From IMG/VR virus record IMGVR_UViG_3300031951_000542, positions 1 through 37,276 of that record: DNA of 37,276 bases; one strand, given 5' to 3'. This document shows, piece by piece, positions 6,972 through 26,600 of this stretch. The stretch's first letter is position 1. Each line of letters begins with the position of its first letter. The notes below the pieces were generated by a model, which searched no databases, was not told the origin of the DNA, and was given only the letters and a program-made list of their open reading frames with translations. The DNA is from a virus. The translations under genes and the position numbers were made by a program.

Positions 6972-7366
6972 AAAAACTAATAACACAAGCACACGAAATG
7001 GCCAAGAGCAAAGGCTTTTGGGAAGGAGAGAGAAACAAACCAGAGATGTTAATGCTCGTTGTTTCAGAATTGGCAGAAGCTTTAGAGGCTTTAAGAAAGG
7101 ACCACTACGCAAGTAAGCACGCCGTAAATAGTCTGTACCAAGACATACAAGTTAACCTATGGGATGACGAGTACAACATCATGGAAGGTCCATGGAAGGC
7201 TGGATTTGAAGCAAATATTAAGTCATCATTCGAGGACGAATTGGCTGACGTAGCTATCCGTTTGTTCGACCTATGCGGTGGTCTTGGTGTGGACCTTGAA
7301 AAACACATCGAATTGAAAATGATGTACAACTCAATGCGTGGTTATAAGCACGGTAAGAAATTTTAA
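6968..7366 (+). CDS. MazG-like nucleotide pyrophosphohydrolase
   Basis: A 132-residue all-alpha protein. The MazG metal-binding motifs are visible as E34-x2-E37 in SELAEALEAL and E91-x2-D94 in EDELADVAIRLFDLCG. They are separated by a ~50-residue insert longer than in minimal MazG. The family hydrolyses (d)NTPs or alarmones to monophosphates; phage copies are proposed to clean nucleotide pools or lower ppGpp. The adjacent ribonucleotide reductase supports a role in nucleotide supply. The start overlaps the VRR-NUC stop, and the next gene begins 4 nt after its stop. Confidence 0.85.
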   Translation: MKKLITQAHEMAKSKGFWEGERNKPEMLMLVVSELAEALEALRKDHYASKHAVNSLYQDIQVNLWDDEYNIMEGPWKAGFEANIKSSFEDELADVAIRLFDLCGGLGVDLEKHIELKMMYNSMRGYKHGKKF

Positions 7367-7370
7367 AACT

Positions 7371-9227
7371 ATGGAACTAGAAAAAGAAATATTGTCGGAT
7401 TTGGTTGTTTGGAGTAAATACAGCCGCTTTGTACCGGAGTTAAACAGGCGTGAGACGTGGCAAGAACTTGTTACACGAAACAAGTCTATGCACTTGAAGA
7501 AGTTTCCACACATGGAGAACGTAATCGAGAAGGCATACGAGTTGGTGTATGCCAAGAAGATTCTACCATCAATGCGTTCGTTGCAGTTTGGTGGAAGACC
7601 AATCGAGGTAAACAATAGCCGCCTGTTTAACTGCAGCTACTTGCATGTTGACGACTATCGTGCATTCTCTGAGACCATGTTCCTACTTCTTTGTGGGACT
7701 GGTGTTGGATACTCTGTACAAAGCTTTAACATCAACAAGTTGCCAGCAATCTCTAAGGCTACAAAGACTCGTAGATACTTGATCGGAGACTCTATCGAGG
7801 GATGGGCTGACGCAATCAAGGTATTGATCAAGGGATACTTGGGACTAAGTGCAACTATTCCTACGTTTGACTTCCGTGCTATCAGAGCAAAGGGTGAGCG
7901 ATTGATCACGTCTGGTGGAGTAGCTCCAGGGCCAGAGCCATTGAAGATTTGCTTGGCACACATTCAATCTATCTTGGACCGAAAGAAAGACGGAGACAGA
8001 CTTACTTCAGTTGAATGTCACGACATCATGTGCTTTATCGCTGACGCCGTATTGAGCGGTGGTATTAGAAGAAGTGCAATGATTGCGTTATTCGACATCG
8101 ATGATGAAGACATGTTGACATGCAAGTTTGGTGACTGGTGGGAATTGAATCCACAGAGAGCACGTGCAAACAACTCTGCTATTCTAAAGCGTGATAGTGT
8201 AAGTAAAGAAGAGTTCTTGGCGCTTTGGAAAAAAATTGAGCTGAGCAATTCTGGTGAGCCAGGGTTCTACTTTAGTGACAACGAAACAATGGGCACCAAC
8301 CCATGCGCTGAGATTGCCTTGAACCCATTCCAGTTCTGTAACTTGGTAGAAGTAAACGCTTCTGACGTTAAAAACCAAGAAGACTTGAACGACCGCGTGT
8401 ACTGGGCCTCTGTTATTGGAACGTTGCAGGCTAGCTACACAGACTTCCATTACTTGCGTCCGATCTGGAAAGAGACCACAGAACGCGAGGCGTTACTTGG
8501 TATCGGAATGACCGGTATTGCTAGTGGAGCTGTAATGAATCTAGACTTGGAGCTTGCTGTTGGCTATGCGTCTATGGCTAATGAAACAGTAAGTGAGCAG
8601 ATCGGAATCAACAGAGCTGCACGTATCACATGCGTTAAGCCATCTGGAACGTCTTCTCTCGTGTTGGGAACGTCTTCTGGTATCCATGCATGGCACGACG
8701 AATATTACGTGCGTAGAATGCGTATTGGAAAGAACGAAGCTATCTACACATACATGTCAATCTACCACCCAGAGATGTTGGAGGACGATGTGTTCAAGCC
8801 AACACAGCAAGCTGTTGTGTCTGTTCCACAGATGGCGCCATCCGGTGCGATTACTAGAAGCAAGGAGAATGCAATTGAGTTCTTAGAGCGTGTTAAGTAT
8901 TTTCACAAGCACTGGATCATGCCAGGGCACTGGACTGGTGACAACACGCACAACGTAAGTGCCACTGTTACCATGAAGCATGACGAATGGCCTGCTGTTG
9001 GGGAGTGGTTGTGGGAGAACAAGAAGCACTTCAACGGTCTTTCTTTCTTGCCAGAGGATCTAGGAACGTATGTTCAAACTCCTTTTGAGACCATCACGAA
9101 GGAAAGATACGAGCAACTCGTTACAAATCTTAACGCTTTGAATGTCGCAAATATTGTAGAAATTAGCGACAACACAAACCTCACGGACCAACAGGCATGC
9201 GGCGGCGGCAACTGTGAGATTCAGTAA
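7371..9227 (+). CDS. nrdJ: Adenosylcobalamin-dependent class II ribonucleotide reductase
   Basis: A 618-residue enzyme that reduces ribonucleoside triphosphates, of the monomeric RTPR type. All five functional cysteines of that type are visible. C88 in LFNCSYLH and C323 form the active-site redox pair. C312 in the NPCAEI motif is the thiyl-radical cysteine, exactly 11 residues before C323 as in the Lactobacillus enzyme. C610 and C615 in ACGGGNCEIQ form the C-terminal shuttle pair. It is about 120 residues shorter than the 739-residue Lactobacillus protein. The frame is open to an ATG at 7338, but the ATG at 7371 follows the MazG stop by 4 nt and begins the conserved region. The enzyme needs host-supplied B12 coenzyme but no oxygen. 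It is the last gene of the left operon. Confidence 0.93.
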   Translation: MELEKEILSDLVVWSKYSRFVPELNRRETWQELVTRNKSMHLKKFPHMENVIEKAYELVYAKKILPSMRSLQFGGRPIEVNNSRLFNCSYLHVDDYRAFSETMFLLLCGTGVGYSVQSFNINKLPAISKATKTRRYLIGDSIEGWADAIKVLIKGYLGLSATIPTFDFRAIRAKGERLITSGGVAPGPEPLKICLAHIQSILDRKKDGDRLTSVECHDIMCFIADAVLSGGIRRSAMIALFDIDDEDMLTCKFGDWWELNPQRARANNSAILKRDSVSKEEFLALWKKIELSNSGEPGFYFSDNETMGTNPCAEIALNPFQFCNLVEVNASDVKNQEDLNDRVYWASVIGTLQASYTDFHYLRPIWKETTEREALLGIGMTGIASGAVMNLDLELAVGYASMANETVSEQIGINRAARITCVKPSGTSSLVLGTSSGIHAWHDEYYVRRMRIGKNEAIYTYMSIYHPEMLEDDVFKPTQQAVVSVPQMAPSGAITRSKENAIEFLERVKYFHKHWIMPGHWTGDNTHNVSATVTMKHDEWPAVGEWLWENKKHFNGLSFLPEDLGTYVQTPFETITKERYEQLVTNLNALNVANIVEISDNTNLTDQQACGGGNCEIQ

Positions 9228-9274: not shown

Positions 9275-9347
9275 GTTTATCATGCAATTTTCACATATTA
9301 AATAGCCAAAATTGGTAGAAAATCACAAAAATGGCAGATAAGGATTT

Positions 9348-9380
9348 TGCGAAATGTATTGCTTTTTGATACTTTTCGCA
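9348..9380 (+). promoter_or_regulatory. Inverted repeat (candidate operator) overlapping the RNA promoter
   Basis: TGCGAAATGTAT (9348-9359) is repeated in inverse as ATACTTTTCGCA (9369-9380), 11 of 12 positions pairing, with a 9-nt centre. The arms flank the -33 to -7 spacer, and the right arm abuts the -7 box at 9381. It looks like a dimeric repressor site. The alternative is an RNA hairpin, but it lies upstream of the expected transcription start. Confidence 0.55.
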
Positions 9381-9388
9381 TATATTTG
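9359..9388 (+). promoter_or_regulatory. Promoter of the tRNA-like RNA (TTG-N19-TATATTTG)
   Basis: -33-like TTG at 9359-9361, 19-nt spacer, -7 TATATTTG at 9381-9388. Transcription would start near 9393-9396 and run into the structured RNA. This is one of only three boxes in the window with a recognisable -33 element. Confidence 0.55.
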
Positions 9389-9526
9389 CTTTAAAATAAT
9401 TAGCCCAAAGTACACGGGATCGAAAACAGGAGGGCATACCGTAAGATCTGCTCACTCGTCCTCTGAATCGTTGGTCAGCATAGTTATCGGGTTCTATGGT
9501 ATGCGATAAGCGAAAAACCCGGAAAT

Positions 9527-9635
9527 AGCCAAGTGGCGAAAGGTTGGGGACTTCCCCGACGTGGTAGTCGCTATCCTGTAGTAAGGAGATGCTGAGTTAA
9601 AAACGGCGTTCAAGGTTCGAGTCCTTGCTTGGCTA
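9527..9635 (+). tRNA. tRNA-Leu-like RNA with D-loop hairpin insertion and abnormal anticodon loop
   Basis: Acceptor stem AGCCAAG (9527-9533) / CTTGGCT (9628-9634), discriminator A9635, no encoded CCA. T arm CAAGG-TTCGAGT-CCTTG (9611-9627) is canonical. D stem GCG (9536-9538) / CGC (9569-9571) with the GGTAG of a Leu D-loop retained, but a 7-bp hairpin GTTGGGG-ACTT-CCCCGAC (9543-9560) sits inside the loop. The anticodon arm ATCCT (9573-9577) / AGGAG (9584-9588) leaves only a 6-nt loop GTAGTA; it could show UAG (Leu) or AGU, neither in a normal U33 context. A class II variable arm TGCTG/CGGCG follows. The sum fits a decayed or repurposed tRNA-Leu. Without the insert the length (about 89 nt) is normal for Leu. 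Confidence 0.6.
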
Positions 9636-9648
9636 CAAACTATATTTT

Positions 9649-9678
9649 GGCAAAATTGCTAACAATTGCCATTTTATT
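9649..9678 (+). terminator. Terminator after the tRNA-like RNA
   Basis: Hairpin with outer GGC/GCC and inner AATTG-CTAA-CAATT (9649-9670, two-base bulge), followed by ATTTTATT. It begins 13 nt after the tRNA-like 3' end. Stability is modest because the inner stem is AT-rich. Confidence 0.45.
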
Positions 9679-9788: not shown

Positions 9789-9974
9789 ATGAAATCTCAA
9801 AATAAAAATATAGCAAACTACGTCAACCACGTCATGAGCGAGTTGAACGAGTTGACAACCGATCTCTATGAGGCCATGATGGATCAAGAGAACGCAGAAG
9901 TGAAGAAGATTGTGGAGACAATGATACCTATCCTTAAGGATATACAGTCGACCCATACAAATGAAGTCATATAA
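9789..9974 (+). CDS. Small helical protein of unknown function
   Basis: A 61-residue acidic, almost entirely helical protein (heptad-like segments in NYVNHVMSELNELTTDLYEAM and VKKIVETMIPILKDI). No Cys, no transmembrane segment and no recognised family. Its last 14 nt overlap the start of the metallophosphoesterase gene, so the two are probably co-translated and may work together. The ATG follows a terminator-like hairpin by 5 nt. The open frame is short, but the overlap and its place between the hairpin and the next gene support it being real. Confidence 0.65.
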   Translation: MKSQNKNIANYVNHVMSELNELTTDLYEAMMDQENAEVKKIVETMIPILKDIQSTHTNEVI

Positions 9975-11073
9975 ACAAGAGGCCGTTGACCTTTTCAATG
10001 AAGGAAAGCTTAACAAGTCCCAGATTGCACGTGTTCTAAAGGACAAGTACAATTTGCCGATGTCTTTAGAGACAGTGAGAAAGGAAGTTTGCAGGCAGGT
10101 AGGAAAACACAAAGCTTTATTGCAAGAATGTGAAAGGCTTGGAATACCAGCAGAGCAAGTCAAACATTACTGGCACAAAGGAAAACACTTTTCAATCAAT
10201 GTAAAAGGGTCTGAGGCTCCGTCATACGAAGAGATTCGTGACGAGATGATCGACCAAATGAAGAGATACTCTCCACAGTACCAGTACATACACAGAAGCC
10301 ACAGCAAAGACGGACACTTATTGGTATTAGATCCGGCCGACGTACACATTGGTAAGCTTGCTAGCTCGTTTGAGACTGGAGAGGATTACAATAACCAGAT
10401 CGCTGTACAGCGAGTAAAAGAAGGTGTTAAAGGTATTTTAGACAAGACTGCCGGTTTTAATATCGAGAAGATCTTGTTCATCGCCGGAAACGACATACTG
10501 CACATCGACACACCAAGAAGGACCACCACGTCTGGAACTTTCCAGGACACCGACGGAATGTGGTATGACAACTTCTTGATCGCGAAGCAGCTATACATTG
10601 AGGTTCTTGAGATGCTTGTTACTGTTGCCGACGTTCACTTCTGCTTCAACCCAAGTAATCACGACTACACCAATGGATTCTTTTTGGCCGACACGATTCA
10701 GTCATGGTTCTCAAAGTGTGAAAACATTACTTTCGACTGCTCTATAGCACACAGAAAGTATTACACATACGGTACCAACATGATTGGATCAACACATGGA
10801 GATGGTGCCAAGGCACAGGACTTGCCATTGCTTATGGCTCAAGAGTCTCCAATGTCTTGGGCACAGACCAAGCATCGCTATGTGTATACACACCACGTGC
10901 ACCACAAGACGTCTAAGGACTTCATTGGTGTAACTGTGGAAAGCCTACGCTCACCATCTGGCACTGACAGCTGGCACGATCGTAATGGCTACAAGGGAGC
11001 TCCCAAGGCGGTGGAGGGATTCCTCCACCACCCAGAGCACGGGCAGGTAGCCCGTATCACTCACCTATTTTAA
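9961..11073 (+). CDS. Metallophosphoesterase with N-terminal helix-turn-helix
   Basis: A 370-residue protein. Residues ~3-50 form a helix-turn-helix (GKLNKSQIARVLKDKY then SLETVRKEV). From residue 120 it shows the calcineurin-like metallophosphoesterase motifs: DPADVH (D124, D127, H129), GND (N177, D178), a variant NPSNHD in place of GNHD (N233, H234, D235), STHGDG (H279) and THHVHH (H311-H315). Members act as nucleases or phosphodiesterases, SbcD/Mre11 being the best known. A DNA-binding HTH fused to this fold suggests a DNA endo- or exonuclease. Its stop codon overlaps that of the convergent giant late gene. Confidence 0.85.
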   Translation: MKSYKQEAVDLFNEGKLNKSQIARVLKDKYNLPMSLETVRKEVCRQVGKHKALLQECERLGIPAEQVKHYWHKGKHFSINVKGSEAPSYEEIRDEMIDQMKRYSPQYQYIHRSHSKDGHLLVLDPADVHIGKLASSFETGEDYNNQIAVQRVKEGVKGILDKTAGFNIEKILFIAGNDILHIDTPRRTTTSGTFQDTDGMWYDNFLIAKQLYIEVLEMLVTVADVHFCFNPSNHDYTNGFFLADTIQSWFSKCENITFDCSIAHRKYYTYGTNMIGSTHGDGAKAQDLPLLMAQESPMSWAQTKHRYVYTHHVHHKTSKDFIGVTVESLRSPSGTDSWHDRNGYKGAPKAVEGFLHHPEHGQVARITHLF

Positions 11074-14000
11074 TCTTCTTCAACATCCTCTGCTCTGCGC
11101 TTTATCTTTTTATTGATAAGATTAGCAACGCTAGCAAATTCAGAAGGAAGGACGCCAATAGTGGTAGCTGTCAGAACGGCAGATGTAATCGCTGCGGCGT
11201 CCTTGTCTTCGTCAAGTATCTGCTTTTCAACCTCGTTATCCCTGTAAGTTTCAGAAAACCTTCCAGTGGTGGACATTCTGATGTTGTCGTAAAGCTCACC
11301 TAACTTCTCTGCTGCTATACCTTGAGTACCAAGTTGATCAAGAACACTTGTTTTTTCTGGAACATAGAAGTTAAATGTAACATCCTCGTCCTCTATGCCA
11401 TACCAGTTCTTTGGAATACTTGAAGACAAACCGCTTTGGTCTAACAGGTAGTTTACCCCCTCACTGGCTTTCGCGTCTATTAATGGCAATGGAGGCAAGA
11501 AAAAGTCCTTCATGAAGTTCTGAGCAGTAGATGAAGCTTGTCTCATCAATATTTTCTTTTCGTACTCCTCATCTTCCTCGTCCTCATCACCCCATATTGC
11601 TTTAGCAGTATACCACAAAGCCTTTAATATTTCTAATCTTATCGCGGCAAAGGCAACTTGCTCAACGATCGCTCCAGATATAGACCTAGCCGCTTCACTT
11701 TTGTCCTCTTTACTAGCCAATTTGCTAGCTAGTGTTCTTGAGTCTGCCCATATTCTTGTCTTTTGGTTAAGAGTAAAAGACATCAATGGGAAAAACGCCC
11801 TTCTCAAGAATACGGTAGCTGGTTGTTTGCTTGTAAACAAGTCTCCCTGCATATCGGTGTCGCTGATGTTCTGTTGAGAATCAACCATTAACTGAGCATA
11901 ATCGGCAGCTTTTTTGTTTAATTCGTGTGTGCTCCAATCAATATTAGAAGTTTTTACGCCCTGTGTTTTAAGGTTGGATATGTAAAACGAAATCCAAGAA
12001 GATCTAGCAGCCCACATATCTGGATACTTAAGCACCAATCCAACAGCATTATTGTTTAAGTCTAGAATTCCTTTCAGTCCTTTAACGGCTAGGTTTCTGT
12101 CTGCCTCTTCAAGCTTTCTGTTGATAGACTTCAATTCTCCTTGAGACCCAATACCACGAGTTGCAATTGGATATCCAGACTCATTAATAAAGTTCATGCC
12201 ACCTCTAAACAATTCGGCTATGTCAAACCTTCCTGTTTGGGCAAGTGTGTTTAACATTGGGGGGACGAACTGTTTTGGTATCTGAGAAACGCTGAACAAT
12301 GCCTTTGCAGTTCCCAAAGATGCAATAGCGTTAGACAACTTATTCAGTTTAGCCATCTCGCTTTGGTCAACGTATCCGCCACCTTTAACAGTATTTACAT
12401 AACCAATTGTCCGCTTCTTGTATAGATTTGCATCTTCTGGGCTAGCAAACAACTTTGAGAAGTCTTTAGATGTCACAAATCCTTTTACCTTCTCAATAGA
12501 GCTAGCTGTTTCTACATCAACCATAGCCGACGTCATTGCATTGACGTTATTGGTATCAAAATCAAGATTCACAATGCGCTTTCTTACTCCGTTGTTGTCT
12601 TTTGGAAGATTCTTGATTCTGTTGTTTTCACGAAGTGATCCAGACTTAGACGTGTTGACGTACTCGAAGCTTCCAAAGAAACCAGACTCAAAGTCTTCAA
12701 TCTCTGCTGGCGACGCCTCTTTCATTTGAAATCTGTCAGGTGTATAATTGGCATCTCTAGAAAGTATTGTATTGTATACATTCCTAGAAACCTCGTCCAG
12801 TCTGTCGTACTTTTTGATCCACTCAGATACCCACCAGTCGACTGCCTTTTGGTTTGTTTCGCTAACCTTAGATTTAACGTCTGCGATATTTTTTGAGCCT
12901 TTTAAGATCTTGTCATATACTTTTTGAATAGTCTTACCCTTCTTGATTTCGGCGTCAGTGTTATACGTGGGATCTTTTAGCGCCTCAATTGTCTCCTCAA
13001 TCAGTGTTTTGCGCCTATTATACTCGTCTTGCACCTGGAATTCATCACCGATCACCGTTCTTGACATAAATGCAAGCATACCTCTTTCGATGATGTTCTC
13101 TGCCGTCAAAAAGTCTTTGATCTTTGAGAATTTAGACGTGTATTCATTAACTATCTTGTCAACAACACTAATGGCCTTTGCTTTTCCAGTTGAAACACCA
13201 GATACTCCAGACTTGTCCATAACTTCTAGGGCTCTTTTAGATGTTACCCACATGACCCTGTTAAGCATAGGCAATGTTCCTACTTGTTGCAGCCACATTC
13301 TTCCTGGACTCTTAAAGAAGTATTTCTTTATTGGAGCAGACTTGACACCTTCATCTTTTAATTCTGTAGCGTTTAAGCTTCCTTCGTAGTTGTTTACAAG
13401 GCCGCTGATACCAGACGTGATGCCGTTGGCAATAAAGTTGTTCGCATATTCAACAGCTTTAATGGCATTTGCAAGAGACAGGTCGTCGGTGTCCATGTCG
13501 GCAAGCTTTATCAAGTCCCTCTTCTCGTCTATTGTAAGATCAATCGGATCCCCAGTAAATGGATCTTCTCCGGTTCTTACGATCTTCTTTATGATCGGAG
13601 ACATCTCGTCCATCATTTCCTTCACGGCCTTCTTGGCCTCTTTCAACTTCTCTTCAGACTGGTCCTCTTTGTTTTCGATAGCCTGCAATACCTTTTTAAT
13701 CTCATTGATTGTCATTTTGCTTGACAATACGCCAGCATCTACCAAGTCTTGATTCTGGCTAAGAAGATCGTTTTTGATTTGCTCTCTCTGCTTTTGTATC
13801 TGATCGTCTATGTAGTTGATCATGTCTTCAAAGTTGGCAACATCTCTCATTAATGGAGACCCAACCTTTCTAGACACAGACTTCAATAAGCTTTCTGCAA
13901 ATTCTATGTACTGGTCGATATTATCAACCATTGATGGGCTAATCTCGTTGAAAGCTTTAGCAATTTTCGCCACCTCTGCTTGATTTGCCTCTGATTTTGC

Positions 14001-17000
14001 AGCTTTGCTTATTGAGCGTCTTAGCTTTGACGCCTGTGCTATTTTGTCTTTGTACTCAGCAGTTTGAAGAACATTCGACATGTAGTCAACGAAACGGTCT
14101 CTCATTACCGGGTTCAAGATGTTCATCTTGTCGTACCTAGCCAATATAGCGGTAGCCTGCTTCGCAGAAATAACGCCACGGCCTGACATTCCACGCAGTG
14201 TTGTAGAGATCTGAGTTCTCAATTCTTTAACGTATGCAACAGCATCTTTGGCAGCCTTAGCTTCCAGTTTGATTTGGTCCTTAAGTGCTGTCTTCTCCTT
14301 TACTGTTACCTCTTTGGTGTCCTTGATCTCACCCATGATGCGAGCCACTGATGGAGCGGTCTTCATCTTTTCGCCTCTGATCTTCTTGAAGTCGCGGATG
14401 ATCTGCTCACGCTGAGAGTCGTCGGCCCTTTCGTATACTGCAGACTTTTGGATGTATCCAATAGCGGCAGCACTTGCCTGGTTGTAGCTTCCGCCACGGT
14501 TCATGCTCTTCTCTAAAATGCCTTCAACCTCACCCATCATTCTTTCGTATCCAGGGATGACGGTTACGTCTACCTTTTGAGAACGAGTGGTTACTGACGG
14601 CTTGGCCTTTTCAATCAACAAGATCCTATCCCTTGTGAATTTGGTCAACTGGAACTTGCTTCTGTCAAAATTTCCGAACGCATTCTCTGTGTCGATCGTC
14701 AATACGTCTCCCTCTATGTCGGTTATTTTGCCATACCTTTTATATACAAATACCTCATCTCCAATCTCAAACACGTCCTCTGGTATTTCCTTGAATCCGG
14801 TGTAGTCAGCCTCTGGAGTTAACTCCTTCACAGTCTGAGCTCTGTAGCTCTTAGGTCCTCCCCAGTTTGTAACAACCATGTCATACCCGTTCTCTGCGGC
14901 AACCTTGGTAACCCATGCTGCTGCATTGTTTGAGTCGAACGCGTATGTAGTTGGCCTTGTTTCATTTCCACGGTTCTTGTACTCCTGGAACCTACGGCGT
15001 GCTTCTGGCTCGAAGTTCTCTGGATCGTTTAATACCTTTCCTCTTTCAGTAGTTCCGTAGAAGTAAACCTTGTCTTTAGGAACTAACACGGTATGTGGAA
15101 CGTCACCTACGCCACTTTCTACTTGGCCCTGCTTTGTGTAGTACATGGCAACACCACCAACAGATGAGATGGCGGCTACCTCTTCGCGTCCTGTAAAGTT
15201 CTTTTTAGAACCAGACATTGGCTTAATGGTGTCACGCTTCTCATCAGAGTAGTGAACAAATACATAGTTGCCTTTTCCGTCGTCTGTAAGAACCTCGTCT
15301 ACAACTGCGGGCACAGCTTTCTGTGACTTGGCAGTTACTTTTGTTTCTTCTTCTGGCTTCTGGTAGTCTGCATCAATGGTAGAAGTATACATTGTTCCAG
15401 AGATTGCAGTGAATGGATTTGTCACTGTTTTCTCATGACCATTCTCCATCAACCACTTAGTAACCTTGTTCTTTCCTATGATTCCAGAAGACTTTGACTC
15501 AGATGCGTTATTTGCATCGTTGTATAATTTGTATCCCTTAGCATCTGGGAATCCCATAGATGGGAATAGCTTATTAACATTCCTTGCTTTGTCTAATCTG
15601 AAAGATTTTCCGTTTGAAGAAAATGATTCGTTAAACATTTCGTGCTGAATGCCCTTGTTTTTATTAGCTAAAAAATCCTCTCTAGTTACATAAGGATCCG
15701 CATAGAAACCACCAAGAGTAGTCCCTCCAATTGAGCTTTCTTTAAAGTTTGACTTTTCTAAAGCGTCATACAGGATTTCGTCCATAGTGTCTTTATAGAA
15801 GTCTTTTCTTCCATATCCAACATCTAATAACAATTTTTTTATCTCTGGATTTTTACCAGTTGCGCTTTTCAATGGAATCAACTCAGACAACAAAGACGAT
15901 CTGAACTTGAATGAGAAAGCCTTAGAACCAAGTTCTCTTGCAGCTTTAATTCTTCCTTCGTGAGTGTCAAATCCTTTTTCTTTGATTATGCCTTTTAGCT
16001 TATCTAATTGCTTGTACTGAGCATCTCCTTTTATTTCTTTAATAGACCTTGCATCACCCTTTGACTCAGAAGCCTTTCTCTCTGAATCAACGTATCTTTT
16101 CTGTGCTTCAGCAATAGCTGTGTCCATTAGCTTTCTAGCTTTGGCTACTGTTGTTTTCTTTTCGGTAATTGCCTTGTCTAATCCATCCATCAGGAACTCT
16201 CCAGCATACCACTCTCCAAGCATTGACTCTGCATTTTGGATTGTAACGAACACAGCAACTGGTTTTCCAGCCATTTCTGGATTCGACGCATCTCTTTCGC
16301 TCGCGATCTGTTGAATCAATCTGTGGAATGTTCCTACGTGTGCTTCGCTAGTAGCAGCAAAACCAATATTATCATTTATGTTCTCTTCAAAATAAGCATA
16401 TCTCCATCCACCCTGCAATTTCTTGTTGTCTCTTGTCATGCCTACCTTGGTGCCATCGCTATTGATAAATACAGCAGCCCCACCAGATTCTTTCAATACA
16501 TTCTCAATAGGCTCAACCTCTGGCATTTTCAACTTATCCGGCATGTTAGAATCGTTGTATTCTATAGACATGTCAAATTGATTGTCAACAGAGTCTTTGC
16601 CGATCTGAGCCCTTGAGATAATACCACCATCCATAGTAGCTCCTGGAGTTTCACCCCTAAAGAACTGAGATATGTCCTCTCCCTTTGACACCTTCTCAGA
16701 GATGGTTATCATAAATCCAAGGATGTCCTCTGGTGTTGCTTGGTCCAAGAATTGCTTCTTGCCGGTAAACAACTGAGCGAACTTGTTGATGATGTCTCCG
16801 ATCTTCTGCAGAAGAGTCTTCTGTTGAGCCGTTAGTGGGCCCTTTCCAAAGCCAGATGCTACCAACATACCACCGAGCTCAGCCATGTACTCTGAGTATT
16901 TAACGGCCTCATAGCCACGCTGGCTAGCGAATGCGTCTAACTTGTCTGCAATGTCCTCAAAACCTTGAGCCCTTAGCTGTGCGTCAATGCTGTCAACAAA

Positions 17001-20000
17001 CTCCTTCATTCGGGCTTGATCGTCAGCAAACGCGTCGTTAAGTAATGTTTCCCAAACCTCGTGTCCAGCAGTAACAGAGTCAGCTGTCTCCTTGTTGAAT
17101 ACCATAGCATATGGCTTGCCGTTCACGAACACTGTCTGACCTCTGGTCTCAGTGGTGAAACCGGCAGCTACATCACTTGCTTGGCTTGGAGCAACAGCGG
17201 ACAATGCCTCTGCGATCTGCATTTGTGCATCGTCAGTATTCTCAGCAATAATAATTTTAAGTCCAGGGGCCACCATATTTAACGACTGAGCAGACTTGTT
17301 TACTGCTTCTTCAAAGTTGGTCTTTGGCGCAAAGTCGGTATCTATCTCAAAATCATATCCAACAGAGAATGTCTTTGGCCCTTCTGGTGTGTTTATAATA
17401 GAAACAACGTTATCTCCAGGAACAAAGTTTTTAGTCTCTAAATTGTCTTTCGCCTTATTCCTTGGATTCATCTTTCCGTTCTGGTAGATCATGCCATCGG
17501 AGTGTGCTACAGACTCTTGGTTAAACTCTTTAGCAAATTCAAAAGCATCCTCCTTAGTCATCCCCTTAACAAAGAAAGAGTTCTCCGCTTGGTCATACTT
17601 TCCTACAATCTTTTTAGGAGAGTATCCCTTGTCAATAAGCCACTGCTCTGCTTTTGTGTTTAAGGCCACATTCTCCTCTTCGGTCAGAGGCTGAGCCTTT
17701 GGATTCTCTGCAGTAACCATGGCGAACTCGCCTTCTATGTCACCTTGAAACTCTTCCTCCGTAATAACCGGAAGTTCAAACGCCTTAGCTGAAACATATT
17801 CCTTGCTGTTCCTAACTTTTTGACGCTCGGTCTTTTCTTGTTCGGTAGGATAAGTTATCTCAATACCAGAGACAACGGCTTTCTCACCTGGAATTACTTC
17901 TTCTTGGTCTTGACCTTCTTCGGCAGCGACTTGAGGTTCTGGTTGGGGTTTTCCTTCGACCACTTCTTCGCCAGTTCTGGTTTCTGGCTGTACAGGTACT
18001 TGACTTGTTGTTTGCTCTTGAACGGCATTGCTTATAGTTATTAGTTGGTTATCAATTTCTGTTATGCGCTTCTTTTGCTTGTCCACCAATGCTGGATCTT
18101 TTCCCTCTATTTGCTTTGTTAGCTTTCTCTTCTCTGCAATCAAGTCAAACGCAGCTCTCTGATTGTCTTCGCTTAGCTCTTGAGGTAGCTCTCTTACAAT
18201 TGCTTTTGCTTCTCTAAAGTTTCTAAAAGTATTTTGCGCTTGCTGCTTAGAAATCTTTCCGCTCAAAATCTGAGATTTAAGAGTAGAAGCCAGCGCTGAT
18301 TCTGTTGTATTGCTAGCAAGTATTTGCTTCATCAAAGCAAATGTTTCATTTGTATTGGACTTCCCGGTAACATATTCTGCAGTTTGCTGTGCAATGTTTG
18401 CCGCTCCAGCCATCCACATACCACCGAGGGCCTCCATCTTTGCGTCTTCTAGTAACGCTTCTTTAAACCCTTCTTCGTTGAAACCAGGTTGATTGAACAA
18501 GTCTTTACCCTTTGCAATTTCATACGCTTCTCTGAATGCGGTATCTGAAATGCTTTGAAGAGCGCCTGTCTCGGCCTCCGAAATCATTGCTCCAGCAGTG
18601 TTAACCGCTCCGCGTAATACTAGGTTATTAATTTCTGCATTTATCAGCTTCTTAACACCACGCATCCCCGCCTGTGGAACTACTTTAGACAATACGTCTA
18701 CCGTTACAGAAGATATTAAACCCTTATTTGCTCCAGCCCACTGAGAGATACCAAAGTTTTCCAATGCGGCCTCAACCATCGCAGGAACTGCAGACATAAA
18801 GAACTTTTCATTCTCTGGCAAGTCCTTTGTCATCGGGCTGTCATTAAGTTCAGTCAATCTTCTTCCTACGCCTTGAGATACCAATACTCCGTATCTAATA
18901 TTGGCGGCCGGGATAAGCATATTTGGAACAAACTCGGCAGCGCCAACAAGCGCTTTTAACACGGGTGGCAATGACTGTACGTACTCTTTAGAGACATCTG
19001 CTTCTACAGAAGACATAACGTTGTCTATGGCCTTTGTATACGCCTCTCTTGCAGCCTTAGCATCTCCAAGATCTTCGGCAGTAACATCAACGCCCATATT
19101 AATAGAGGCTAATTCCGCCAATCCGGTATATGCAACGCTTGCAGCCTGGTTTGCAATATCAAGAACGCCGGTTACGGAGTTTTCTACAAACTTTAATAAG
19201 CTATTATACATTGCAGATGGAAGATTTCCTTGCTCTCCCATTATTCTCGCGTTTTCTCCGGCAGCCTTTTTAACACCCTCATCAGTTAAAGACGCTATAG
19301 ACTTTGCGTACTTTATACTCCTCTCGTATTCGCCCTGTAGCTCAGAAAATCTAGCCTCTATTTCTGGAGTTACGCCACCGATCATGGCGTCTTCGTTTAG
19401 CTTTGCTATTTCTGCCTGTATCTTGTCAACCCCGTCCTTGGTCTTTTCAAGTTCGTTGTTAGCAAACTTAATAGAACTATCTACCAACTCTTGGCTATAA
19501 ACCCTTTTAAACTTTGCCTCTTCTTGTGGAGAGATGCCATCCCTTGACATCATCAAGAACTCCATCGGGCTTACTGGCTTTTTCTCTACGCCAGCAGACT
19601 TGCCCATCAAAAACGTCTGTAACTTTGCCTCTTCTTCTCTTAACTTCTCGTCCGATCCTGTTGATTGAACAATATGTGTAGAGCCATCATCCGCAGTTAC
19701 AACTATATCTCCAAGGCCCAACCCCTTTTGAATCTTACTAGGAGCTTCTTTAAAGCTAACGCCTAAGTCTTTGTATTTTTCATTAAGGTTTTGTACTGTA
19801 CTTTTGGTCTGTCCAGGTATCCCCTTGAGAGTCCCTGTTTGTACATTGGCTTTTCCGAACAAAGCTTTGTCTGCCTGTTCTTTTGGAACAGGAGTAAATC
19901 CAGGCTTAGACGAGGCCACTGCAGCTCCTGCAGCTAAGTTTACGCTTGCTTGAAGTTGCTCTTGTAGGCTAGGTCCTTTTTTTGCAGAAGGCGCCGATGG

Positions 20001-20282
20001 CCCACCGGCCATCTCCCCACCAGTAGCCAATGAAGTAGGTTGAGCGTTTTGTTGAGAAGGAGATACCTGTTCTTTTTTTTTTACTGGAGCAGGGGCTCCA
20101 ACACCCATCAACTCATCAAAATCTTTTTGTGTTTTATTGTAGCCAGTGCTTACAAACAAATCATACGCATCTTTTCTTGCGGATGGATTTGATTGAATTA
20201 GCGCCTTGAAGTTATCGTAAGACTTGTTATACCCAGTGTTTACAAACAGATCATACGCATCTTTGATTGCATCTTCATTCAT
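11070..20282 (-). CDS. Giant polyvalent virion/ejection protein (gp16-like position)
   Basis: A 3070-residue protein, the largest in the window. It begins with two tandem 30-residue repeats (residues 7-36 and 37-66, each with DAYDLFV-x-TGYNK). Then come a Pro/Ala/Gln-rich linker (to ~130), a long helical part with hydrophobic stretches (~400-620), an acidic linker (~740-820), and a zincin-like segment AGHEVWETLL (~1068) with AELGGML (~1134). A region at ~1680-1800 (HYSDEKRDTI ... GGVAMYYT ... VPKDKVYFYG) recalls ADP-ribosyltransferase-like domains of polyvalent proteins. Long coiled coils (~1850-2150) and a C-terminal helical region with a strongly acidic EDEEDEEYE run follow. It follows gp14- and gp15-like genes, so it is probably packed in the head and injected with DNA. 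Domain calls beyond the repeats are tentative. A TATCTTTG box lies 4 nt before ATG. Confidence 0.8.
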   Translation of the reverse strand: MNEDAIKDAYDLFVNTGYNKSYDNFKALIQSNPSARKDAYDLFVSTGYNKTQKDFDELMGVGAPAPVKKKEQVSPSQQNAQPTSLATGGEMAGGPSAPSAKKGPSLQEQLQASVNLAAGAAVASSKPGFTPVPKEQADKALFGKANVQTGTLKGIPGQTKSTVQNLNEKYKDLGVSFKEAPSKIQKGLGLGDIVVTADDGSTHIVQSTGSDEKLREEEAKLQTFLMGKSAGVEKKPVSPMEFLMMSRDGISPQEEAKFKRVYSQELVDSSIKFANNELEKTKDGVDKIQAEIAKLNEDAMIGGVTPEIEARFSELQGEYERSIKYAKSIASLTDEGVKKAAGENARIMGEQGNLPSAMYNSLLKFVENSVTGVLDIANQAASVAYTGLAELASINMGVDVTAEDLGDAKAAREAYTKAIDNVMSSVEADVSKEYVQSLPPVLKALVGAAEFVPNMLIPAANIRYGVLVSQGVGRRLTELNDSPMTKDLPENEKFFMSAVPAMVEAALENFGISQWAGANKGLISSVTVDVLSKVVPQAGMRGVKKLINAEINNLVLRGAVNTAGAMISEAETGALQSISDTAFREAYEIAKGKDLFNQPGFNEEGFKEALLEDAKMEALGGMWMAGAANIAQQTAEYVTGKSNTNETFALMKQILASNTTESALASTLKSQILSGKISKQQAQNTFRNFREAKAIVRELPQELSEDNQRAAFDLIAEKRKLTKQIEGKDPALVDKQKKRITEIDNQLITISNAVQEQTTSQVPVQPETRTGEEVVEGKPQPEPQVAAEEGQDQEEVIPGEKAVVSGIEITYPTEQEKTERQKVRNSKEYVSAKAFELPVITEEEFQGDIEGEFAMVTAENPKAQPLTEEENVALNTKAEQWLIDKGYSPKKIVGKYDQAENSFFVKGMTKEDAFEFAKEFNQESVAHSDGMIYQNGKMNPRNKAKDNLETKNFVPGDNVVSIINTPEGPKTFSVGYDFEIDTDFAPKTNFEEAVNKSAQSLNMVAPGLKIIIAENTDDAQMQIAEALSAVAPSQASDVAAGFTTETRGQTVFVNGKPYAMVFNKETADSVTAGHEVWETLLNDAFADDQARMKEFVDSIDAQLRAQGFEDIADKLDAFASQRGYEAVKYSEYMAELGGMLVASGFGKGPLTAQQKTLLQKIGDIINKFAQLFTGKKQFLDQATPEDILGFMITISEKVSKGEDISQFFRGETPGATMDGGIISRAQIGKDSVDNQFDMSIEYNDSNMPDKLKMPEVEPIENVLKESGGAAVFINSDGTKVGMTRDNKKLQGGWRYAYFEENINDNIGFAATSEAHVGTFHRLIQQIASERDASNPEMAGKPVAVFVTIQNAESMLGEWYAGEFLMDGLDKAITEKKTTVAKARKLMDTAIAEAQKRYVDSERKASESKGDARSIKEIKGDAQYKQLDKLKGIIKEKGFDTHEGRIKAARELGSKAFSFKFRSSLLSELIPLKSATGKNPEIKKLLLDVGYGRKDFYKDTMDEILYDALEKSNFKESSIGGTTLGGFYADPYVTREDFLANKNKGIQHEMFNESFSSNGKSFRLDKARNVNKLFPSMGFPDAKGYKLYNDANNASESKSSGIIGKNKVTKWLMENGHEKTVTNPFTAISGTMYTSTIDADYQKPEEETKVTAKSQKAVPAVVDEVLTDDGKGNYVFVHYSDEKRDTIKPMSGSKKNFTGREEVAAISSVGGVAMYYTKQGQVESGVGDVPHTVLVPKDKVYFYGTTERGKVLNDPENFEPEARRRFQEYKNRGNETRPTTYAFDSNNAAAWVTKVAAENGYDMVVTNWGGPKSYRAQTVKELTPEADYTGFKEIPEDVFEIGDEVFVYKRYGKITDIEGDVLTIDTENAFGNFDRSKFQLTKFTRDRILLIEKAKPSVTTRSQKVDVTVIPGYERMMGEVEGILEKSMNRGGSYNQASAAAIGYIQKSAVYERADDSQREQIIRDFKKIRGEKMKTAPSVARIMGEIKDTKEVTVKEKTALKDQIKLEAKAAKDAVAYVKELRTQISTTLRGMSGRGVISAKQATAILARYDKMNILNPVMRDRFVDYMSNVLQTAEYKDKIAQASKLRRSISKAAKSEANQAEVAKIAKAFNEISPSMVDNIDQYIEFAESLLKSVSRKVGSPLMRDVANFEDMINYIDDQIQKQREQIKNDLLSQNQDLVDAGVLSSKMTINEIKKVLQAIENKEDQSEEKLKEAKKAVKEMMDEMSPIIKKIVRTGEDPFTGDPIDLTIDEKRDLIKLADMDTDDLSLANAIKAVEYANNFIANGITSGISGLVNNYEGSLNATELKDEGVKSAPIKKYFFKSPGRMWLQQVGTLPMLNRVMWVTSKRALEVMDKSGVSGVSTGKAKAISVVDKIVNEYTSKFSKIKDFLTAENIIERGMLAFMSRTVIGDEFQVQDEYNRRKTLIEETIEALKDPTYNTDAEIKKGKTIQKVYDKILKGSKNIADVKSKVSETNQKAVDWWVSEWIKKYDRLDEVSRNVYNTILSRDANYTPDRFQMKEASPAEIEDFESGFFGSFEYVNTSKSGSLRENNRIKNLPKDNNGVRKRIVNLDFDTNNVNAMTSAMVDVETASSIEKVKGFVTSKDFSKLFASPEDANLYKKRTIGYVNTVKGGGYVDQSEMAKLNKLSNAIASLGTAKALFSVSQIPKQFVPPMLNTLAQTGRFDIAELFRGGMNFINESGYPIATRGIGSQGELKSINRKLEEADRNLAVKGLKGILDLNNNAVGLVLKYPDMWAARSSWISFYISNLKTQGVKTSNIDWSTHELNKKAADYAQLMVDSQQNISDTDMQGDLFTSKQPATVFLRRAFFPLMSFTLNQKTRIWADSRTLASKLASKEDKSEAARSISGAIVEQVAFAAIRLEILKALWYTAKAIWGDEDEEDEEYEKKILMRQASSTAQNFMKDFFLPPLPLIDAKASEGVNYLLDQSGLSSSIPKNWYGIEDEDVTFNFYVPEKTSVLDQLGTQGIAAEKLGELYDNIRMSTTGRFSETYRDNEVEKQILDEDKDAAAITSAVLTATTIGVLPSEFASVANLINKKIKRRAEDVEED

Positions 20283-23637: not shown

Positions 23638-26600
23638 TTAGCAGGCTTCTGTTGATGTCCAGGCCGATCCACTCCAGTAGTGTGCATTCAACAAATCAGC
23701 AGAGCTCTTGTAGTATCCAGCTCCCGCAACGGTAGTTCCAGAAGAGTTCAAGTACAACGTTCCGCTTACGCCAATAGTACCATCTGTCCAGTAAGAGTAG
23801 TAGTTCGTGTCAGCACAAACAACAGACTTAGTTCCAGCATCTGTCAAGAACACCTCGGTAAGCCCAGGCGCCTCTCCGGTACATATTGCACAGCTAGCAG
23901 ACGTTACCAATGTGGTAGGCACAGTGAATGTGGCAGCCTGAGGAGAAACATTGGCTGTTTTGGTCCAGCAGTTACCATCAGATGTCTTGAATATTGTTCC
24001 ATTGGCAATAACCCTAACTACTGCATCGTATAGAACCGCACTGTAAGTACTGTTACACAACGTAGCTTGGTAGTATCCACCGGCAGGAGGAACTGGAGGA
24101 GTTGGAGGAGTAGATCCACAGTTGAATACAGATTCTACAACACCATCGTTGCCAATCTTGATGGCTTGGTTATTGTTTGTCTTGTACCAAGAACTAGACC
24201 CTTCAAATACATTTCCTCCTCTAGCTTGTAAGAATACAGTGTCTCCAACGATTGGATAGGTATAATATCCGTTGTGGTACAAGTTATCCCATCCGAGAAC
24301 CAACAATGCACATGCAGCAGAAGACGTTCCCTGTCCATTGATGAACACTTCAAATTGTGTAGCTGGATTATCGTTTAATACTGATGACACGGTTACTTGA
24401 GTTGTTGGTCCAGTTCCGAAGCAGTTGGTAGCAGTGAATGCTGCTGGATACTCTCCAATACCCTCTACTGTTCCGCTAATGATACCGGTTGTTGAATCAA
24501 AGTTAAGGCCAGCTGGCAATGAGAATCCAGAGCACGCTCCTTCAACTGTCAGTGTGGCGTCTGCAGATCCAGAGATCTGGCTAACAGTTCCAGACGCAAA
24601 ACAGCGAGAAGATGTCTGTCCTCCAGATACCACAATGGTTTCATAGTATCCAGTCTCACAGTTTGCTCCGTAGAACACAGCTCCCTCTGATCCACCAAAG
24701 AAACTAAAGTTACTGCACGCAGAAACAAGTGTGTAGCTTGTAGGATTGTTAGTTGCAGGCACTTTGAAGTTCACAGACTGTCCTGAAACAAACTCCATGT
24801 TTGACGCAGTCACAATTGGAGGGGCAGTCTCAGAGCACACGCAAGATGAAATCTCGGTAACCACGCCATTGGAAGTTACAAACATCAAGTTTGTTCCTGT
24901 CTTATGATACGCATTTCCGCCATCGTAAACTGACGATCCGGTTGAGTCATTATAGATTGTGCAACCAATAGACACCACACCACCATCAGCATTGTGATAC
25001 TTTGTAGTCGATGGTGTTTGAGAGCATACGTTATCAATAGTTCCGTTTGTCGTGTCAAGCGTAAACGAAGTCAACGAAGCGCATCCAGTTGTAGCTGTCC
25101 AGCTATTTGATGATAGTGGAGAGTATACAGTAAGAACTGTTTCCTCTGTTGAAGTTCTAACAAAACCTAATGTTCCTGTGCTATTGTTAACCAGGCCATT
25201 GTATGGCTCAACCAATGCAATCTCCGCTTCTGGAACACCGGCCGCGATCAATGCATTGTAGTTGGCTAAGCTGTTTAGACCAACATACCCAGAGTCGGCA
25301 ACTACGTTTCCGCCAACAGAGATAACAAATCTGTCTGGTGTTGACTGTGCGTCGTAAGAGAATGACACCCGGCCAATATTAGCGCCCATATTTACAACAG
25401 TTGGAATTGTTGCAGCTACGCCACTATAAGACACTGCAGATCCGCACGCTACGGTATTTCTGTAGTCCCAGATAAGATAAAGGTATTGTTCGTTTGATGG
25501 TGCAGAGTAAACAAATGTTCCAGAATACTCTGTGCCAACCAATGACATAGTTACTGGAGTAGCGAGACTCAGTACTGTTGCATAGTCCTCCTGTGTGTAT
25601 TCGGTATTTGACACCAAGTAGTACACCTTGTTTCCTGCAGTTGGAATGAACGGATTCAACTCTGCGTCCAAAGCAGATGTAGCGTCCTTGTATGCATACA
25701 CAGTAACTGTATCGCCAGGGGCTGGGATTCCATTGGTTCCAGCCACGTCAGACGCTGTGTCAAACAAGCTAACATCAACAGGCTTGAAGATGGTATCGTT
25801 GAACTCATACCCTGCCGTTGTAGAGCTAGAGTAGTTGTACTTCTGAGTACCAACCTTACCAGACTCTTCTGGAGATCCAATAACGAATGTAGATCTACGC
25901 TTGATTACTGTTGCAGTCTGTGTGATGGTAAAGGTCCTAACAACACCACAGCTAGCTGTAATTGTAAGCGTAGCAGTTCTAGGAACTCCTGTATTGTTGG
26001 CAGCGATATCAGCCTCAACATCTTGGTTTCCAGTTCCGCTTGATGGCGCTACGGTCATCCATACTGGAATGTTTGTAATAACCCAGCCAGAGTTAGACTG
26101 AATGTCGAATATGTTCTTGGTCTGAGACGTCTTGTCTACAGTAATTGAAGACGGAGTTACAACTAGTTCACAAGGAGAAGCTGTGTCGTCGTTAGACGCC
26201 AGTACATACATTTGGTTATACGGATCAAATGTACCTATCTTTTGTCTGTTGATACCAGCAATAAATAGGTCCTTAAACCAATCACGCATACCTTGCATTG
26301 AAATCTCCTGGATAGAGTTTCCTGCAACTCTCAGTGCTACACCGCGTCTAGCGTCTGTGAAGAACAAGTCACTTCCCCATACCGCAAAGCTTTCTGGGTT
26401 CAAGCTAATTCCGTATTCGCCAGGGAATGCGATCTGCGTTCCAAGAATCTCTGGAACCGTAGAGATAGTACCACCGCCAACAGAGTCGCTGATTAAGTTC
26501 TTTCCATACAATACCACAGACACCTTGTTCTCTTGGAATACCACCAAGTCAGTGTCTCTAGCATAAAGCTTTTGAATGCTACCAAAGAATCTATCTACAT

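Follow-up and report, generated by a model that had tools for sequence, protein, structure and literature searches.

Does the RNA encoded at positions 9527-9635 (plus strand) of the window decode, and if it does not, what does its tRNA body serve? The window is the whole stretch of 37,276 nucleotides analysed here, an IMG/VR virus record whose genes are ordinary phage genes; its portal protein is about 46-63% identical to the portals of an environmental phage and of Maribacter, Flavobacterium and related phages. The RNA is flanked by genes for a ribonucleotide reductase (7338-9227) and for a DNA repair exonuclease (9961-11073). Two very long reading frames are found on the reverse strand among the virion genes, at 11070-20282 (3070 aa) and 23638-29502 (1954 aa).

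An RNA of tRNA shape with an unusual interior

RNAfold yields one dominant structure for these 109 nt, the minimum-energy structure being also the centroid, with a folding energy of -43.3 kcal/mol (z = -3.5 relative to dinucleotide shuffles). It consists, in this order, of a 7-bp acceptor, a D stem, an inserted hairpin, a TCCT[GTAGTA]AGGA hairpin, a second hairpin and a 5-bp T arm. The Rfam tRNA model (RF00005) covers 9527-9635 from end to end with 28.1 bits, below the gathering cut-off of 29 bits, which several relatives of the RNA exceed; ARAGORN called no tRNA for it. The limits and the structure that the initial annotation had given for a tRNA-Leu-like RNA are exact.

All parts lie on the plus strand. 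The 5' strand of the acceptor stem, AGCCAAG (9527-9533), pairs with CTTGGCT (9628-9634), which together with the discriminator A73 makes up 9628-9635; C74 follows at 9636 and CCA is not encoded. The D stem of the RNAfold structure is formed by GCGA (9536-9539) and TCGC (9568-9571). Directly after its 5' strand come A14-A15 (9540-9541), then the inserted hairpin GTTGGGG-ACTT-CCCCGAC (9543-9560, in which 9543-9549 pairs with 9554-9560), then G18-G19-U20-A20a (9563-9566). As the hairpin sits between A14-A15 and G18-G19, the elbow nucleotides are retained. Between the D arm and the T arm CAAGG-TTCGAGT-CCTTG (9611-9627), the place of the anticodon arm and variable arm is taken by a hypervariable insert (9572-9610) which ends in U48 and contains two hairpins, at 9574-9587 (the TCCT[GTAGTA]AGGA hairpin) and at 9588-9610. 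The short 6-nt "anticodon" loop that had been reported is present, but what had been read as anticodon and variable arms are not tRNA arms: together they are the insert of this family member. Similarly, the A-T first pair, previously taken for an anomaly, is the one with which the common frame of this family, AGTCAGG...CCTGACT, ordinarily starts. A selenocysteine or allo-tRNA identity would need an acceptor/T stem layout other than 7/5, for instance 8/5, 9/4, 8/4 or 9/3; we rejected it, as the layout is 7/5 in the window and in its relatives.

A family with a conserved frame and a hypervariable insert

The window RNA is one of a large family that occurs in uncultivated freshwater phages of Bacteroidota. 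Among the matches listed, about 160 distinct RNAs have intact acceptor and T stems and count as members; this number is approximate because a few entries span two neighbouring elements. The family set was built from exact patterns and is consequently biased toward one frame: scanning IMG/VR for the D-loop hairpin module gave 17 contigs, and scanning it for the common frame start AGTCAGGTGGCGGAAYGG (an 18-nt pattern) gave at least 120 matches. In most of the records tested the common frame is present once to six times, and the reversed control pattern is absent from all of them.

The frame of the members is tRNA-Leu-like, with a 7-bp acceptor, a D arm, a T arm and A73. An insert of 23 to about 120 nt, with a median of 61, stands in the place of the anticodon and variable arms. 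Across the family the frame is far more conserved than the interior; BLAST clustering of the inserts of the about 160 members gave 129 clusters, 110 of which are singletons. The unusual interior of the window RNA is a hypervariable, exchangeable insert within a conserved frame.

In a collection of 50,697 records, no cultivated phage covers 80% of a frame query. In 84,980 species genomes the frame is present in five contigs, all belonging to metagenome-assembled genomes and probably phage, three of them Sediminibacterium or Chitinophagaceae; a scan of the phylum found it in 1 of 395 genomes, one that was known already. The proteins encoded nearby include a type IX secretion signal domain, which is consistent with Bacteroidota hosts. 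The family thus seems to occur chiefly in uncultivated phages of Bacteroidota, and this may explain why it is apparently undescribed. Its novelty is provisional: we found no description of the family in the literature covered, outside of which lie preprints and most subscription journals.

Selection on the frame

We aligned the 16 members carrying the D-loop hairpin. The pairs of the frame are formed in 99.7% of the cells of this alignment, and 12 of the 22 pairs change on both sides. These are six of the seven in the acceptor, four of the five in the T stem and two in the D-loop hairpin; there is little variation in the D stem. The covariation score of the frame is 0.53, compared with 0.17 in shuffles and at most 0.09 when the structure is slid along the alignment. 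The relatives thus show a structure far beyond chance, as far as aligned sequences can tell, and the tRNA shape is under selection, as had been proposed, with acceptor, T and inserted stems all covarying. The D-loop hairpin, whose covariation in related phages the initial annotation had suggested to check, is a genuine insertion with all 7 pairs retained in the 16 sequences. These comparisons show a frame of the tRNA-Leu type, made up of acceptor, D arm, T arm and A73, to be conserved with compensatory changes.

Position 74 is a C in 163 of 166 family members and in all 157 normal tRNAs of the same contigs, whereas bases 75-76 of the family are mostly not CA. The retention of C74 after the discriminator, as in the normal tRNAs of these phages, points to the same 3' processing.

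The RNA could be a decaying tRNA-Leu, one of the options first considered, since it scores just below the Rfam cut-off and its anticodon is absent. However, random decay without compensation did not occur in the relatives, where the acceptor stem, the T stem and the D-loop hairpin show compensatory changes; moreover, C74 is retained and the same architecture is found in many unrelated phages. Decay is contradicted by these findings, and we regard it as the most improbable of all the explanations weighed here.

Decoding and leucine charging

A segment resembling an anticodon arm (a 5-bp stem and a 7-nt loop with U33, at the expected place) is found in 1 of 120 non-redundant inserts, when 0.73 are expected from shuffles. 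Together with the 6-nt loop of the window RNA, this rules out normal decoding, as had been suspected, and on these comparisons decoding is contradicted for the family. There are tRNA-Leu genes with introns in bacteria, and one could imagine a decoding tRNA whose anticodon arm is restored by intron removal. Inserts of 23-33 nt are nevertheless too short to hold an anticodon arm, a variable region and an intron, and the anticodon-arm-like segments are at the chance level just given. This explanation too is contradicted, and is hardly more credible than decay.

The family shares with bacterial tRNA-Leu (RF00005) the 7-bp acceptor, the 5-bp T arm, A14, A15-U48, G18G19, A20a and A73; it differs from it by the missing anticodon arm, by the hypervariable insert and, in a subset of members, by the D-loop hairpin. 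The leucine identity rules comprise A14, A15-U48, G18G19, A20a, A73 and the D/T-loop contacts, and a truncated E. coli tRNA-Leu deprived of its anticodon and variable arms is still charged (PMC9976931). The window RNA retains every one of these elements, its D-loop hairpin being placed so as to spare G18G19 and A20a. A14, A15-U48, A20a, TTC56 and A73 are all present in 86 of 120 members (window included). Among the normal tRNAs of the same contigs, scored without TTC56, the set is complete in 14 of the 15 tRNA-Leu and in 9 of the 142 others. As A14-A15 are part of the rule by which members were selected, the independent evidence is limited to U48, A20a, A73 and C74. In 14 of 166 members A73 is replaced by G, which would weaken charging. 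Because the frame keeps the main bacterial identity elements and loses parts reported to be dispensable, we make the strong prediction that the RNAs of this family would be leucylated.

Inserts are structured and exchanged

Compared with their dinucleotide shuffles the inserts are more stable, with a mean z of -0.94 over 120 of them (P about 2e-13). One insert type, known from five sequences, keeps an 8-bp helix with double changes at four pairs; another type is found in five frames, each of which has a different acceptor stem. The window insert is found elsewhere only in L003/L107 and L114, and the inserts of the other members are unrelated to it.

The exchange can be followed between nearly identical phages in the gap between the small and large terminase genes, one recurrent element site. 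There, L137 and L147 have the same frame and flanks (400 bp) that are 96% identical upstream and 93% downstream, whereas the identity of their inserts is 0.44, compared with 0.45 for shuffled inserts, which means that the inserts are unrelated. Inserts are likewise exchanged at a fixed site in L159/L171, L219/L171 and L183/L241. The change sets in where the D arm ends and extends as far as the T arm. These alignments show that the decoding part has been replaced by a structured insert which is exchanged as a unit between phages. The D-loop hairpin is a separate module, since L109 and L140 have an identical insert and only L109 has the hairpin.

These properties bear on the main rival of the reading that we favour below, namely that the RNA is a decoy whose frame is the working part: it would absorb host enzymes or nucleases directed at tRNAs, only the missing anticodon arm would matter and the interior would be free to vary. 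The much stronger conservation of the frame fits this, and defence systems that attack tRNAs, CCA tail included, are known (PMC12851939). However, the interiors are more structured than shuffles, are found nearly unchanged in unrelated phages and covary, which argues that the interior itself is selected and weakens a decoy made of the frame only. We therefore hold such a decoy to be unlikely, if less so than the other alternatives.

We looked for the inserts elsewhere. Copies outside frames were not found: the matches viewed in context lay in other frames, some of them diverged or cut, with the exception of L175, where an insert match precedes the 3' end of a frame whose 5' half could not be recognised. 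The inserts contain no common sequence motif above the level of shuffles. In 296 genomes of the host family Chitinophagaceae they gave two short matches, which we viewed and dismissed as chance. Rfam, at gathering and at permissive thresholds, has no family for the inserts or for the leader motif described below; above the cut-off, the scanned loci contain tRNA, tmRNA and freshwater-1 RNA only.

The gene is mobile

Between the window and L114 the similarity is limited to 115 bp, at 94% (window 9523-9637). Similarly, L189 and L133 or L215, as well as L239 and L244, share only 131 bp, at 95-99%, besides short matches to other tRNA arms. These comparisons show that unrelated phages share the RNA gene only, and that this gene is mobile; it is also under selection.

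We also retrieved 80 related contigs with the window exonuclease as bait. The content of the gap that harbours the RNA in the window differs sharply among the closest relatives. In L003 the window RNA is accompanied by a further tRNA-like RNA, 110 nt long. A different tRNA-like RNA, whose acceptor stem is the same, is found in L006 and L007. The contigs L004, L005, L009 and L010 lack a tRNA-like RNA and have a small hairpin RNA only. In L002, whose exonuclease protein is identical, the RNA, its promoter and its leader are missing, 9346-9672 being replaced by about 20 bp.

Such a distribution could also fit a selfish RNA gene, spreading by recombination between the conserved arms of the frame with little benefit to the phage: unrelated phages share nothing else, the near-identical DNA of the frame arms could act as recombination arms, and the close relative L002 lacks the element. 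On the other hand, the acceptor and T stems diverge with compensation, so that it is the RNA fold that is selected and not just DNA arms, and no mobility gene is consistently linked to the elements. A purely selfish gene seems to us improbable, more so than the decoy.

Upstream sequences and neighbouring genes

A Bacteroidota-type promoter, TTG-N19-TATATTTG (9359-9388, plus strand), exactly matches TTG-N19-TAnnTTTG, and a similar sequence is found at the same place in most of the relatives L003-L010, including most of those having the small hairpin RNA only. In the family, a promoter box is located 4-9 nt before base 1 of the frame in 8 elements, when 0.4 are expected. The window promoter precedes a leader RNA (9404-9526, plus strand) directly 5' of the tRNA-like RNA, in which CGGGTT (9488-9493) pairs with AACCCG (9516-9521). 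The leader has homologues in L003 (about 91%) and L016 (75%); in the latter the stem is CAGGTT/AACCTG and another tRNA-like RNA follows. By RNAfold alone the leader has no excess stability (z 0.02).

The leader contains a recurrent motif, GCATACCGTNAGATCTGCTC (9434-9453, plus strand; L254-L331), which has at least 120 IMG/VR matches. In at least 120 phage contigs it sits on top of a variety of stems, in terminator-like hairpins and in long RNAs adjoining tRNAs; neither the window nor the scanned loci gave an Rfam match for it. A recurrent linker, GACGGCTCGGAAAGACGAGCAACAT, ends exactly at base 1 of tRNA-like RNAs (L371-L388, L107, L123, L166, L231), and such linker hairpins stand before 17 of 117 odd RNAs as against 2 of 153 normal tRNAs.

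The adjoining genes are co-directional with the element in 241 of 267 cases. Among 104 neighbour clusters no constant partner gene lies beside most elements, nor is there a recurrent toxin-like gene; the neighbours are ordinary phage genes.

A probable carrier for exchangeable RNA cargo

We consider it rather probable that these RNAs are non-decoding carriers, processed as tRNAs and probably leucylated, for an exchangeable RNA cargo which perhaps acts in counter-defence. The carrier would be expressed as part of phage operons or by a promoter of its own, and host tRNA enzymes would trim both ends and add CCA. It would then be charged with leucine, given that the only parts replaced are those that leucyl-tRNA synthetase does not need. 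As such an RNA cannot decode, its tRNA body would serve the making, protection and delivery of the insert. Finally, and this is the weakest step, the insert and the D-loop hairpin, a second insertion site, might bind a fast-changing factor of the host or of a competitor, for instance a defence nuclease, a toxin or an RNA. Such binding would explain the rapid exchange of inserts; as the inserts have no motif and no match beyond chance in the 296 genomes, it is this turnover only that suggests the last step, and with no recurring partner gene nothing points to a specific target. The fast exchange at fixed sites and the mobility of the gene suggest, from genome comparison, a conflict with host defences or with other phages. 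Of the roles listed in the initial annotation, a decoy or effector RNA is possible, and a primer role has no support.

More generally, and much more tentatively, leucylated non-decoding tRNA bodies might be a general delivery chassis in phages of Bacteroidota, the inserts swapped at two sites acting as a rapidly diversifying, RNA-based counter-defence or as a weapon between phages. The insert and the D-loop site would then be swapped between phages much as specificity modules are in proteins.

If the carrier reading is true, the family would be a natural counterpart of the laboratory "tRNA scaffold", a chassis matured by the host with swappable cargo, and would add a fast-evolving module at the RNA level to the conflict between phages and hosts. 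It would imply leucine-charged RNAs that never enter translation, and some of the tRNAs that are called "undetermined" or pseudo in phage metagenomes could be explained by it. The prediction can be tested directly, since the charging rules of tRNA-Leu are known and the frame and inserts are short enough to be synthesised.

Comparison with known systems

In plant RNA viruses, tRNA-like structures are the 3' ends of viral genomes and have pseudoknotted acceptors. There too a viral RNA mimics a tRNA well enough for tRNA enzymes to handle it, as they probably do with the RNAs of our family. Unlike the plant virus structures, each of our RNAs is encoded by a gene of its own in a DNA phage, has true cloverleaf ends and carries an exchangeable insert. 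The ToxI antitoxin RNAs of type III systems, and the pseudo-antitoxin decoys of phages, are small, varied RNAs which phages can use against defence. Our RNAs are also small and varied, the inserts in L127 and L149 being apparently pseudoknotted, but they are embedded in a tRNA frame and have no tandem repeats. We rejected an identity as type III antitoxin RNA, the Rfam scans giving no ToxI match and the neighbours no recurrent toxin-like gene.

Phage tRNAs that evade anticodon nucleases are likewise altered around the anticodon, and defence pressure may be the cause (van den Berg et al. 2023, eLife 85183); they keep a decoding anticodon with loop changes, whereas our RNAs have no anticodon. 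Theta ribozymes, which adjoin phage tRNAs (PMC10879173), and GOLLD/ROOL RNAs (PMC12286853) are, like our family, structured non-coding RNAs of Bacteroidota or lake phages at tRNA genes; their anatomy is different, and Rfam matched none of them in the window or in the scanned loci.

Other unusual RNAs were noticed in the scanned contigs. In L117 (reverse strand, from about 2693) and L228 (from 4269), the D-loop insert resembles an acceptor stem and a T arm, so as to form a nested mini-tRNA, CCCCGT...GTGGTTCGAATCCAC...ACGGGG, inside the D-loop of the tRNA-like RNA. In the phage of L003, a minimal acceptor-plus-T-arm RNA, GCACGGG...TGGGGTTCAAATCCCCA-CCCGTGC, is located at about 1309-1354 of L104, next to another odd tRNA-like RNA. 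A tmRNA (77 bits) is present on a phage contig, L275 (1387-1793), close to normal tRNAs, and L195 has a freshwater-1 RNA (RF02979) at 1826-1887, with a tRNA-like RNA and a normal tRNA close by.
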